Source of the DNA: Flavobacteriales bacterium
Lineage (GTDB): Bacteria > Bacteroidota > Bacteroidia > Flavobacteriales_C > GCA-002722245
Length of the DNA: 64,000 nt
Direction: 5' to 3'
Assembly: GCA_023251095.1 (NCBI GenBank)
Contig: JAHEZL010000011.1
Span: 1-64,000 of the forward strand
The position numbers and the translations under genes are program-made. Below are positions 57,747 through 61,212 of the stretch, in pieces; position 1 is the stretch's first letter, and every line of letters begins with the position of its first letter. The notes below the pieces were generated by a model. It worked only from the letters and a program-made list of their open reading frames with translations. It ran no database searches and had not been told where the DNA came from.

Positions 57747-58451
57747 TCAACATCTCGAAGTTTTATATCCTTCATAAATTTTTTCCTCATTTGACTTTTC
57801 TCCAAAAAGATGCTGTTTTAAAACTCGTTGTACTTTTCTTTTTTCTCTTGTTCTTTCTAGTTTTCTCCACCATTTCGGACTATTAGAAAATCTGCCATAA
57901 AACTGAACATAGAATTCAGTTTCCATTTTATTTTCAATCAATTTCATTTCGCTTTCCAGCTCCGAATCAATAATTTTTCTTTTGTAGATGTAAGCCCTTG
58001 AAACTTTAAAATTGAAATAAAACGCAGGAAGAATTGAAATATAAAGTGTTTCAAAATACCCTGGCGTATACATTTCTCTCTGTCTTTTGATAAAAAAACG
58101 CTTTGCCTTATCACTTAATTTATCATACTCTTTTTGAGGAAGAGCACTGATACCCGGATACTGAATTCGTTTGTTGTTTTTCGACTGCTCACCCCAGGCT
58201 TTTTCCAAACGCTTTTTTGAGCTTCCCCACTTTACCACTTTTGTAGCTTCAAGAATTTCTAAATAAACTGGTACCTCCTTACGCTTTAAAATATCTTCCC
58301 TAAAAACAAGTTCCTTGTAAAAACCATGTCGGATAGGCTTTTTCAGATAGGTCCAACCCAATTCTCTTTTAGCTTTCCTTAGAAGCAAAAGCTTCTTCAA
58401 TAACTTCCTGAATTCTTTTACTTTTGATTCATATTTATGTGTCGGTTTCAT
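57747..58451 (-). CDS. Uncharacterised highly basic protein, last gene of the rtcB-prfH operon
   Basis: This is a 234-residue protein with very many Lys and Arg residues spread along its length, plus many Tyr/Phe/Trp. Basic clusters include EFRKLLKKLLLLRKAKREL near the start and WWRKLERTREKRKVQRVLKQ near the end. The middle, REMYTPGYFETLYISILPAF then YFNFKVSRAYIYKRKI, is more hydrophobic and could be a folded core. No signal or recognised domain is present. It starts 14 nt after the 77-residue gene. RNA or ribosome binding is suggested by charge and operon context only. Confidence 0.75.
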   Translation of the reverse strand: MKPTHKYESKVKEFRKLLKKLLLLRKAKRELGWTYLKKPIRHGFYKELVFREDILKRKEVPVYLEILEATKVVKWGSSKKRLEKAWGEQSKNNKRIQYPGISALPQKEYDKLSDKAKRFFIKRQREMYTPGYFETLYISILPAFYFNFKVSRAYIYKRKIIDSELESEMKLIENKMETEFYVQFYGRFSNSPKWWRKLERTREKRKVQRVLKQHLFGEKSNEEKIYEGYKTSRC

Positions 58452-58714: not shown

Positions 58715-59395
58715 TCAATCGTCTTTTTCAATTCTTGTTTCTCGTATTAACTTTTGTTTTCGGGTGGAATCGGTAAAATCATCGCCATAAAAAATTCTGA
58801 TCGGATTCCCTCTTTCCAGTCCGTTGTGTTGTTGCCAGGTGTTTTGCTGCATCAGCTTTATTTGGTTTAAGTTTTCAGCCTGCAAGATCAAAACCAGCTT
58901 CTCTCTCGCGTTCTTTTTATTTTGATGCTGCGATCGTGATTCATTGCTTACCGCACTTATTCCGCTTGGCAGATGAATGGCCCTTACTGCCGTTTCAACT
59001 TTGTTAACATGTTGTCCGCCCGGACCACCCGACCGAAAAGTTTCATAGCGTACATCCGCTTCTCTAAAACTTTGATCAAGTAATTTTGAGCTTTCCACCT
59101 TTTCAATTCCAATGAACCAGTTTTTCCTTTTGTGAAATTTCCTGAAGCGGCTTTGTCCAATCCATTGAACTGTACCCACCCATTTCACAAGGAATTTTTG
59201 AACTTCCTTTCCTTCAATTAAAATCATTGAAGAAAACAAAGTGTGTTTTTCCGGTCCGTTTTCCTTGCTCAAAACATTGGCAATTAAACCTTGAGCCCTC
59301 GCCTCTTTTAAAAAGACACTCGTAGCCTGAGCCACTGCCCAGCAGCATTCTGCGGGGCCGCGACCACTTGTGATTTGTATGATTTCCTTTTCCAT
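58715..59395 (-). CDS. prfH: Peptide chain release factor homologue PrfH
   Basis: This is a 226-residue release-factor-like protein. It has the catalytic GGQ loop ([24 protein letters not shown] at ~126-128) and the helical segment [16 protein letters not shown] after it, but lacks the large codon-recognition domain of RF1/RF2. Short length and the neighbouring rtcB identify it as PrfH. In characterised systems PrfH hydrolyses peptidyl-tRNA on ribosomes damaged in the 16S decoding centre, so the RNA can be religated by its RtcB partner. It is separated from rtcB by 49 bp that hold an AGACGCAAAA palindrome. Confidence 0.92.
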
Positions 59396-59444: not shown

Positions 59445-60848
59445 TTAATTTTTATCCATCCTCACAATTTTTGGATAGAATTTCCCTTCTATGTTCACTA
59501 AATGCTGCTGACTTTTCATCACGTCATCAATGTTTTTGTAGGCCATTGGTGCTTCATCCAATCCACCGCCGATCAAAGTGATTTTCTCTTTTTTGAGAAT
59601 TTTATTCATCTCACTTTTGGTGGTAGATTCACGCGCTCTGCTTCTCGACATTTCTCTTCCCGCACCGTGCGCCGCTGAATTGATTGATGCTTCCACGCCC
59701 TTGCCACTCACAATGTATCCCGCATGAATCATGGACCCCGGAATAATCCCCAACTCTCCCTGATGCGCAGGTGTGGCGCCTTTGCGGTGCACAATCAACT
59801 CTTTGCCTTCTACCATTTCCTTCCACGCAAAATTGTGGTGATTTTCAATTTTGAAAATTGAGGATTCACCAAGTAATTTCGACAAGCGTTGATGAATGTG
59901 ATCGTGACAAGCCTTGGCATAATCACCCGCCAGATTCATCGCCAACCAATATTCCATTCCTTCTTCGCTATCTAAATTGAGCCAGGCCAAATGCTGCACT
60001 TCACGTGGCAATAAACATTTTTCTATTGCCAACTTTGTGTAGTGTGTAGCCACCGCTGCGCCCAATCCGCGCGAACCCGAATGTGACAAAACACCCACAT
60101 ATTCACCCGCAGGCAAAGCCATACAATTGTTTGGCGGAAGAGCCACCACTCCAAATTCAACAAAATGATTTCCGGATCCTGAAGTCCCGATTTGAAATCT
60201 CGCCTTATTCAGCAAGGGTTTCAGGAAGGGAACTTCTTTAAATTCCGGTCGGTCAAATAAATCATCATCTATAGGGTCGTCAAATCCCACACCTGTTCCA
60301 AACCGGGTTTGAGCTATCATCCCTCGGGTTAATTGAAAGTTATATCGATCTAAATAGGACGGCCTGATATCATAAATACTCAAACACATTCTACAACCTA
60401 TATCAACCCCAACACCGTATGGAATGACCCCGTTTTCAGAAGCAAGTACTCCGCCTATCGGCAAACCATAGCCCTGATGTGCATCGGGCATCAATGCGCC
60501 CTTCACTGCAATTGGTAATCGCATTACCTGATCCATCTGTTGAATTGCGTTGGAGGAGATATGCTCCCTGCCAAACACGTTGTATGCACCACTCTCTTTT
60601 TTGATTTTAAGTTCCTCTTTGAACCCTACTTCTACCACCACACAAAATTCTGCGGCGATAGCACCAAAAACATCGTGATTTTTGTACTTCTCAGCATTTA
60701 AAAGAACGTCATTTAGCAAGGATAATTTTTCGTTTTTTGAAAAATGTTTGTAATGCTTTTGCATCACGTCCATTGCTCTACTTTTTGATTCTGGTGTGGT
60801 AAAACCCAACTTACTTAAGTCTTTACCACGAATTATTTCTTTTGCCAT
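59445..60848 (-). CDS. rtcB: RNA ligase RtcB, ribosome-repair (RtcB2-like) type
   Basis: This is a 467-residue GTP- and Mn-dependent RNA ligase that joins 2',3'-cyclic phosphate to 5'-OH ends. Conserved elements are PDAHQGYGLPIGGV (~121-134), GVDIGCRM (~147-154), GSGNHFVE (~223-230), HSGSRGLG (~255-262), HHNFA (~336-340), HRKGATPA (~353-360) and AAHGAGREMSRS (~391-402), whose His393 corresponds to the guanylated histidine. Adjacency to prfH argues for 16S rRNA repair over tRNA splicing or rtcA-type roles. The ATG at 60848 is preceded by TAATATTG and 4 nt, a possible own promoter, and 94 bp further by the leader terminator. Confidence 0.95.
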   Translation of the reverse strand: MAKEIIRGKDLSKLGFTTPESKSRAMDVMQKHYKHFSKNEKLSLLNDVLLNAEKYKNHDVFGAIAAEFCVVVEVGFKEELKIKKESGAYNVFGREHISSNAIQQMDQVMRLPIAVKGALMPDAHQGYGLPIGGVLASENGVIPYGVGVDIGCRMCLSIYDIRPSYLDRYNFQLTRGMIAQTRFGTGVGFDDPIDDDLFDRPEFKEVPFLKPLLNKARFQIGTSGSGNHFVEFGVVALPPNNCMALPAGEYVGVLSHSGSRGLGAAVATHYTKLAIEKCLLPREVQHLAWLNLDSEEGMEYWLAMNLAGDYAKACHDHIHQRLSKLLGESSIFKIENHHNFAWKEMVEGKELIVHRKGATPAHQGELGIIPGSMIHAGYIVSGKGVEASINSAAHGAGREMSRSRARESTTKSEMNKILKKEKITLIGGGLDEAPMAYKNIDDVMKSQQHLVNIEGKFYPKIVRMDKN

Positions 60849-60941
60849 TACACAATATTATACACCGCTATAACACTTGAATTAACAAGCACTACAAGCA
60901 ATAAATTAAATTACTTTGATTTTTTAGAGATGTACCGAAGG

Positions 60942-60973
60942 CAAAAAAAAAGCCCGATCGGCTGATCGGGCTC
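60942..60973 (-). terminator. Intrinsic terminator upstream of rtcB
   Basis: Read leftward, AGCCCGAT pairs with ATCGGGCT, extended by a C-G pair around an AGCC loop, and is followed by T8-9. It would stop leftward transcripts 94 bp before the rtcB ATG. Directly upstream is a second hairpin TCAAGAA/TTCTTGA (60972-60988). Confidence 0.88.
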
Positions 60974-60996
60974 AAGAAAAATTCTTGATGTTGGAG

Positions 60997-61044
60997 CTAA
61001 CTCCTTCCGACCAATTTTATATATGGGTGTTGCATTTTATACAT
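60997..61044 (-). CDS. Possible 15-codon leader ORF in the rtcB leader
   Basis: The frame encodes MYKMQHPYIKLVGRS and stops at UAG inside the first hairpin (GGAG-UUAG-CUCC). A second in-frame ATG lies at 61035. The codons for K-L-V-G contain the UUGGUCGG segment able to pair with the terminator arm, so translation could mask it. It is too short to be judged coding by statistics and may be chance. Confidence 0.3.
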   Translation of the reverse strand: MYKMQHPYIKLVGRS

Positions 61045-61075
61045 GTGCTATTTTTATTTTATTATTTGATGAAGA

Positions 61076-61105
61076 CAAAAGTAATTATGATTTTGTAATT
61101 TCCAA
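61076..61105 (-). promoter_or_regulatory. Consensus promoter of the rtcB leader RNA
   Basis: On the minus strand TTG (61105-61103, within TTTGG), 19 nt, then TACTTTTG (61083-61076). This fits the Bacteroidota TTG-N19-TAnnTTTG consensus in every fixed position. It drives transcription toward rtcB and away from the OmpA-like gene. Confidence 0.72.
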
Positions 61106-61212
61106 ATATTTTGAAATTTTATTTTGTTATTTAGAATAAATCAAGATAATGGAGAGCCGAATAATTTTAAGTAATATCATGATTATCTTTAGTCCAACTA
61201 AATAAAATTGCA

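Follow-up and report, generated by a model that had tools for sequence, protein, structure and literature searches.

The window, by which is meant the whole stretch of 64,000 nucleotides analysed here, carries on its minus strand an operon that begins with rtcB (59445..60848; RNA ligase RtcB; PF01139, 5.6e-76) and continues with prfH (58715..59395; peptide chain release factor H; TIGR03072, 229 bits, above the cut-off) and then with the genes for two uncharacterised proteins. One of these, a protein of 234 aa (57747..58451, minus strand), is a recurring operon partner and appears to be an unknown third partner of RtcB-PrfH. Its homologues are found at 44 of 137 prfH loci, and they include a protein of about 248 aa (27% identity, E 3e-9) encoded upstream of rtcB in many Flavobacterium operons. 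It has no match in Pfam, NCBIfam or PADLOC, and a PADLOC search with the proteins of the operon matched nothing.

Between rtcB (start at 60848, minus strand) and a divergent OmpA-like gene (61213, plus strand) lies a leader, also on the minus strand. It opens with a promoter of the Bacteroidota housekeeping type, TTG-N19-TACTTTTG (61076..61105), identified from its sequence, which has equally placed counterparts in the related loci L002, L003 and L004. This is followed by an ORF of 15 codons, MYKMQHPYIKLVGRS (60997..61044 including the stop), for which a second ATG at 61035 is an alternative start; this ORF has no Shine–Dalgarno (SD) sequence, and its C-terminal codons can be aligned with the leader ORFs of L081, L156 and L161. 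The last codons of the ORF contain element 2, UUGGUCGG (61007..61014; UUGGUCGGG in L002–L004). Folding places the UAG of the ORF in the loop of a hairpin, P1 (GGAG-UUAG-CUCC, 60993..61004), and predicts a second hairpin, P2 (UCAAGAA/UUCUUGA, 60972..60988; AAGAUAUAUCUU instead in L003 and L004). Then come element 3, CCGAUCAG (60962..60969), which comprises the 5' arm of the terminator and the start of its loop and is the partner of element 2, and element 4, GAUCGGGC (60952..60959), which is the 3' arm of the terminator and of which element 2 is nearly a copy. The intrinsic terminator itself (60943..60973; stem 60973-60950, then a U run), whose core is identical in L002–L004, ends about 94 nt upstream of the rtcB ATG. 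The parts reported in the first-pass annotation, namely a promoter, a 15-codon ORF ending in a hairpin and a terminator 94 bp before rtcB, are therefore all present, and so is the complementarity that it described between the ORF (UUGGUCGG, 61014-61007) and the 5' arm of the terminator (CCGAUCAG, 60969-60962).

Within the window, some of these parts, taken individually, do not exceed chance. The promoter pattern occurs twice, compared with 2.2 expected occurrences, and the alternative pairing 2:3 is only modestly beyond chance (p = 0.014). The terminator ranks first among ten terminator-like sites between 57000 and 64000, and the leader folds better than its shuffled versions (z -3.56). It is the comparison between genomes that lifts the predicted leader far above chance.

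In the window's family, represented by 10 genomes, leader and rtcB occur together in four and are both absent from six. In the genus-mate L002, the DNA identity is 87-100% from the promoter through the ATG (in 30-nt windows); directly upstream of the promoter, the identity between L001 and L002 collapses from about 0.97 to about 0.5 (0.53), and since this is where the neighbouring gene differs, the leader is part of the operon. In the second genus of the family (L003 and L004; rtcB identity 69-70%), the leader sequence has for the most part changed, but the promoter, AAUUGGUCGGGAGGA and the terminator GCCCGAUCAGCCGAUCGGGC are kept. Both the stop-codon hairpin and the second hairpin are present there with sequences different from those of the window, and element 2 is lengthened so as to form nine pairs with element 3. 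Conservation in close relatives, on which the first-pass annotation had made its proposal depend, is thus borne out for the promoter, element 2, both hairpins and the terminator, which are kept in all three relatives. The frame of the ORF through element 2 (UUGGUCGG in the window) differs between the two genera; consequently, translation of the window's own ORF is argued by analogy.

The leader extends well outside this family. About 175 non-redundant Bacteroidota rtcB loci were sampled, and a terminator was counted when it was intrinsic, lay 20-300 nt upstream of rtcB and could not be attributed to the upstream gene. Such a terminator was found at 59 of 90 free-standing rtcB-prfH operons versus 4 of 100 control genes from the same loci (p = 3.5e-21); an earlier and looser control set gave 15 of 133, mostly first genes of rtcB operons. 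No terminator was detected in about one third of the free-standing operons, around 10 of which still have the leader ORF; at a few rtcB loci, the terminator is placed farther upstream and, at many loci whose operon begins with a different gene, it is this first gene that the leader precedes. A search of 61 Flavobacterium genomes with the Flavobacteriaceae leader model gave 16 strong matches, every one of them upstream of an rtcB operon, and these matches cover all 14 PrfH-positive genomes of the set.

This distribution bears on the idea that the unit is a stand-alone sRNA of about 130 nt which lies upstream of rtcB by chance, rtcB being expressed through leakage or from a weak lower promoter. 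A promoter and a terminator do bound a compact RNA, and a one-mismatch TAnnATTG is found 12 nt upstream of the rtcB ATG. However, the region between the terminator and rtcB holds no consensus promoter, the candidates there being one-mismatch sequences that lack a -33 element at the proper spacing, and the unit follows the rtcB operon throughout the phylum and shifts to the front of longer operons. Nor would a simple sRNA be expected to have a covarying pairing that breaks its own terminator or a conserved reading frame (see below), and we regard this explanation as very unlikely.

The pairings themselves point to an attenuator. Around 70 Flavobacteriaceae loci have covarying stems like those of trp (1:2, 2:3 and 3:4), in which element 1 sits just 5' of the leader ATG and has element 2 as its partner. 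The covariation scores of these three stems, like those of 2:3 and 3:4 in leaders of the window type, exceed all 500 shuffles and each slid control. Changes on both sides were counted in 6 of the 9 pairs of the Flavobacteriaceae stem 1:2 (for example CUGAAG/CUUCAG, CCGAAG/CUUCGG and ACAAAGC/GCUUUGG) and, for the window type, in 3 of 7 pairs of 2:3 and 4 of 7 pairs of 3:4, the pair-count alignments (A3 and A4) being small, with registers set manually or so as to give the best pairing, and with relatedness only partly controlled. These counts are based on anchored elements, since element 1 varies in its spacing and was wrongly placed when 56 leaders were aligned with MAFFT; the RNAalifold-based model R1 comprises the terminator stem only. 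The problem of register choice does not affect the swap test, in which exchanging the element 3 arms between loci of the window type made the pairing with element 2 poorer (n = 14, permutation p = 5e-5), and partner swaps between Flavobacteriaceae loci were found to weaken 1:2 and 2:3 far beyond chance. A partner of element 2 corresponding to element 1 was sought in the window type, and nothing rose above the shuffles. Most related leaders have a hairpin at the position of P1, immediately after element 2 and of unrelated sequence (Stouffer z -6.9).

In folding predictions, RNA extending through element 3 adopts the antiterminator (-19.8), the full RNA adopts the terminator (-29.5) and masking element 2 likewise yields the terminator. 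The antiterminator shares an arm, element 3, with the terminator, and the covariation and swap tests agree on this. Terminator and antiterminator are accordingly predicted to be mutually exclusive, as the first-pass annotation had supposed, and both covary in relatives; the covariation analysis that it had suggested for the hairpins and the alternative pairing upstream of rtcB-prfH speaks for a translation-coupled attenuator.

The involvement of translation is indicated by the geometry of the leader ORF. Of 71 Flavobacteriaceae leaders, 69 have a distance of 54, 57, 60 or 63 nt between the ATG and element 2, and the distance from element 2 to the stop codon is mostly 18, 21 or 24 nt; the element-1 spacer and the spacer between stop codon and terminator can have any length, with no step pattern. 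Since the ATG-to-element-2 distance changes in steps of three, the reading frame matters in the Flavobacteriaceae. Element 2 lies about 5-16 nt before the stop codon in the window type and about 10-21 nt before it in the Flavobacteriaceae, that is, within reach of a terminating ribosome, which would cover it. The expectation of synonymous-biased change in the mini-ORF failed in the Flavobacteriaceae set: the peptide is not conserved, pN/pS is about 0.75 and other frames give similar values. No amino acid or codon is universal at codons 2-15 of these leaders. The absence of visible selection on the peptide and of a universal amino acid suggests that it is translating itself that matters rather than its product, and what the leader requires seems to be an ORF with its stop codon shortly after element 2, not a particular peptide sequence.

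SD sequences are rarely used in Bacteroidota, and a cut in the 3' end of 16S rRNA removes the anti-SD. Many related leader ORFs nevertheless have an SD upstream. Strong ones are found in Cytophagales-type leaders (L069, L072, L092, L151, L161, L197, L198, L200 and others), and in a count of strong SDs, 12 of 24 motif-selected leader matches had one versus 5 of 181 rtcB starts. The motif ACAUAUC is enriched in leaders of the Cytophagales type (e.g., L069, L088 and L151); it is kept in two different reading frames and therefore probably acts at the RNA level.

The preservation of ACAUAUC as nucleotides, together with the unconserved peptide, would suit a switch to which translation of the ORF is irrelevant, operated by a ligand, as in a riboswitch, or by an RNA-binding protein such as RtcB or a ribosomal protein, and the alternative pairing by itself is compatible with any ligand. 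Such a switch would not, however, explain why the ATG-to-element-2 distance shifts by whole codons only, why the ORFs remain open and stop just after element 2 or why an SD precedes many of them. Moreover, no Rfam class matches: with Rfam 15, nothing in the window scored above the gathering score (there were weak sub-threshold hits only), and there was no hit over the leaders of twelve relatives. We consider this possibility highly improbable.

A third explanation is that the leader, like those of trp or his, acts as an attenuator specific for a codon or a tRNA and senses the loss of one tRNA to an anticodon nuclease. Its hairpin logic would be the same, and RtcB enzymes also religate breaks in tRNA. 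A codon-specific signal is nevertheless disfavoured because no amino acid, and no codon, occurs in the early part (codons 2-15) of every Flavobacteriaceae leader, and the codons that are shared, LRG/LRD, fall in element 2, which a ribosome stalled on them would mask. In the absence of a regulatory codon common to the leaders, this explanation was ruled against, and we rate it as extremely unlikely.

We therefore favour, with a probability of about 0.8, a reading of the leader (61105-60943, minus strand) as a ribosome-mediated transcription attenuator of the rtcB-prfH operon. In sequence terms, it has what is expected of such attenuators, including a short ORF that adjoins or overlaps the regulatory stems. 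RNA polymerase would start at the leader promoter and transcribe the short ORF with element 2 in its last codons. A ribosome that reaches the stop codon would open P1 and mask element 2, whereupon element 3 would pair with element 4, and the resulting terminator would keep rtcB-prfH off. If the ribosome were to stall early or, in the window type, if there were no translation, element 2 would pair with the newly made element 3, the antiterminator thus formed would enclose P1 and P2, and the polymerase would continue into rtcB-prfH. In this way, ribosomes that cannot elongate, for example because their decoding centre is cut, would cause the enzymes of rescue and religation to be made. In the Flavobacteriaceae type, stem 1:2 would keep the operon off unless a ribosome had started and then stalled. 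The proposal of the first-pass annotation that an absent ribosome allows read-through can thus be retained for the window type, which lacks element 1 and should be switched on by an absent or an early-stalled ribosome, but not for the Flavobacteriaceae type, where the covarying stem 1:2 should keep the operon off. Lacking element 1, the window type would also respond to a generally low level of translation.

The comparison of genomes reveals, in the sequences, a conserved layout, covarying exclusive pairings, a conserved frame in the Flavobacteriaceae and a linkage to the operon; from these, we infer a switch that operates in vivo, takes translation as its input and is naturally triggered by ribosome damage. 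Colicin E3 cuts 16S rRNA, and E. coli is protected against it by PrfH and RtcB2 (PMC9223846); cut ribosomes are for this reason the natural candidate. A sensor that responds to blocked elongation in general would be indistinguishable from a damage sensor. The chances are evenly balanced that these leader RNAs are, phylum-wide, sensors of ribosome damage, with ribosomes cut in the decoding centre starting a decoy ORF on which they cannot elongate, so that element 2 stays free, ribosome integrity is read directly by the cell, and RNA religation and rescue are turned on only when needed, and with leaders of a similar plan in Enterobacterales. If the leader does couple transcription to decoy translation, the ribosome would be both the sensor and the client of its repair system; if true, this would offer a simple genetic reporter of ribosome damage for Bacteroidota and would add a widespread class of attenuator to a phylum in which control by leader peptides is little studied.

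No earlier description of an rtcB-prfH leader was found in the openly readable main texts of papers on PrfH, of surveys of attenuation or of studies of flavobacterial transcriptomes, and the papers that were found do not describe switching of RtcB-PrfH; this agrees with the first-pass annotation, which knew of no such attenuator, as does the Rfam result. The nearest known systems are the trp, his and ilv attenuators, which likewise have a short leader ORF and a terminator and an antiterminator with a common arm, the stems 1:2, 2:3 and 3:4 of the Flavobacteriaceae relatives being those of trp. The rtcB-prfH leaders differ in having no run of regulatory codons and in the genes regulated, which are those of ribosome repair, and the window type differs further in that its leader stop codon lies in a hairpin and stem 1:2 is missing. 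In the tylosin-dependent leader of Bacillus subtilis, blocked translation of a leader peptide leads to the expression of a ribosome-protecting gene (PMC6851288). The rtcB-prfH leader would resemble it in that a block to translation of the leader permits expression of a ribosome-protective gene, but it has no visible conserved arrest peptide, and its operon acts by repairing cut RNA, not by methylation of rRNA. In Flavobacteriales, rpsU is autoregulated in an SD-dependent manner (PMC9976891); there too, an alteration of the ribosome shifts the expression of a ribosome-related gene, and related rtcB leaders have a strong SD, but the control of rpsU is translational and involves no terminator, and the leader ORF of the window is without an SD. 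The promoter of the window's leader, of the Bacteroidota housekeeping type, contrasts with the sigma-54 promoter of rtcBA operons under RtcR control, which have rtcR as a neighbour.

The RtcB2-PrfH system of E. coli, in the description of which an attenuator is nowhere mentioned (PMC9223846), consists of the same enzyme pair. An ORF of 15 codons with the SD AAGGAGG is found 67-112 nt upstream of rtcB on the E. coli plasmid pCP127 (L267; MTNPLSMTLCRPFQD) and in Proteus mirabilis (L269; MTTTNMNTLCGQSQK), with a hairpin at the stop codon (GCAGAC/GUCUGC or GCGGACA/UGUCCGC), and in E. coli CUCUUUGCAG is in addition a folding partner of the SD region. Unlike in the window, an intrinsic terminator looked for upstream of the E. 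coli gene was not found. A leader switch may, on this resemblance, exist outside Bacteroidota.

Flavobacterium rtcB operons without prfH (L082, L089, L094 and L122) have a different type of leader, with the terminator AAGCCCGGT...CCGGGCTT, and two leader ORFs of this type end in HIPL. At L204, a Flavo-1 RNA (RF01705; 1157-1233, minus strand) lies immediately upstream of the rtcB leader on the opposite strand, which is probably a coincidence.
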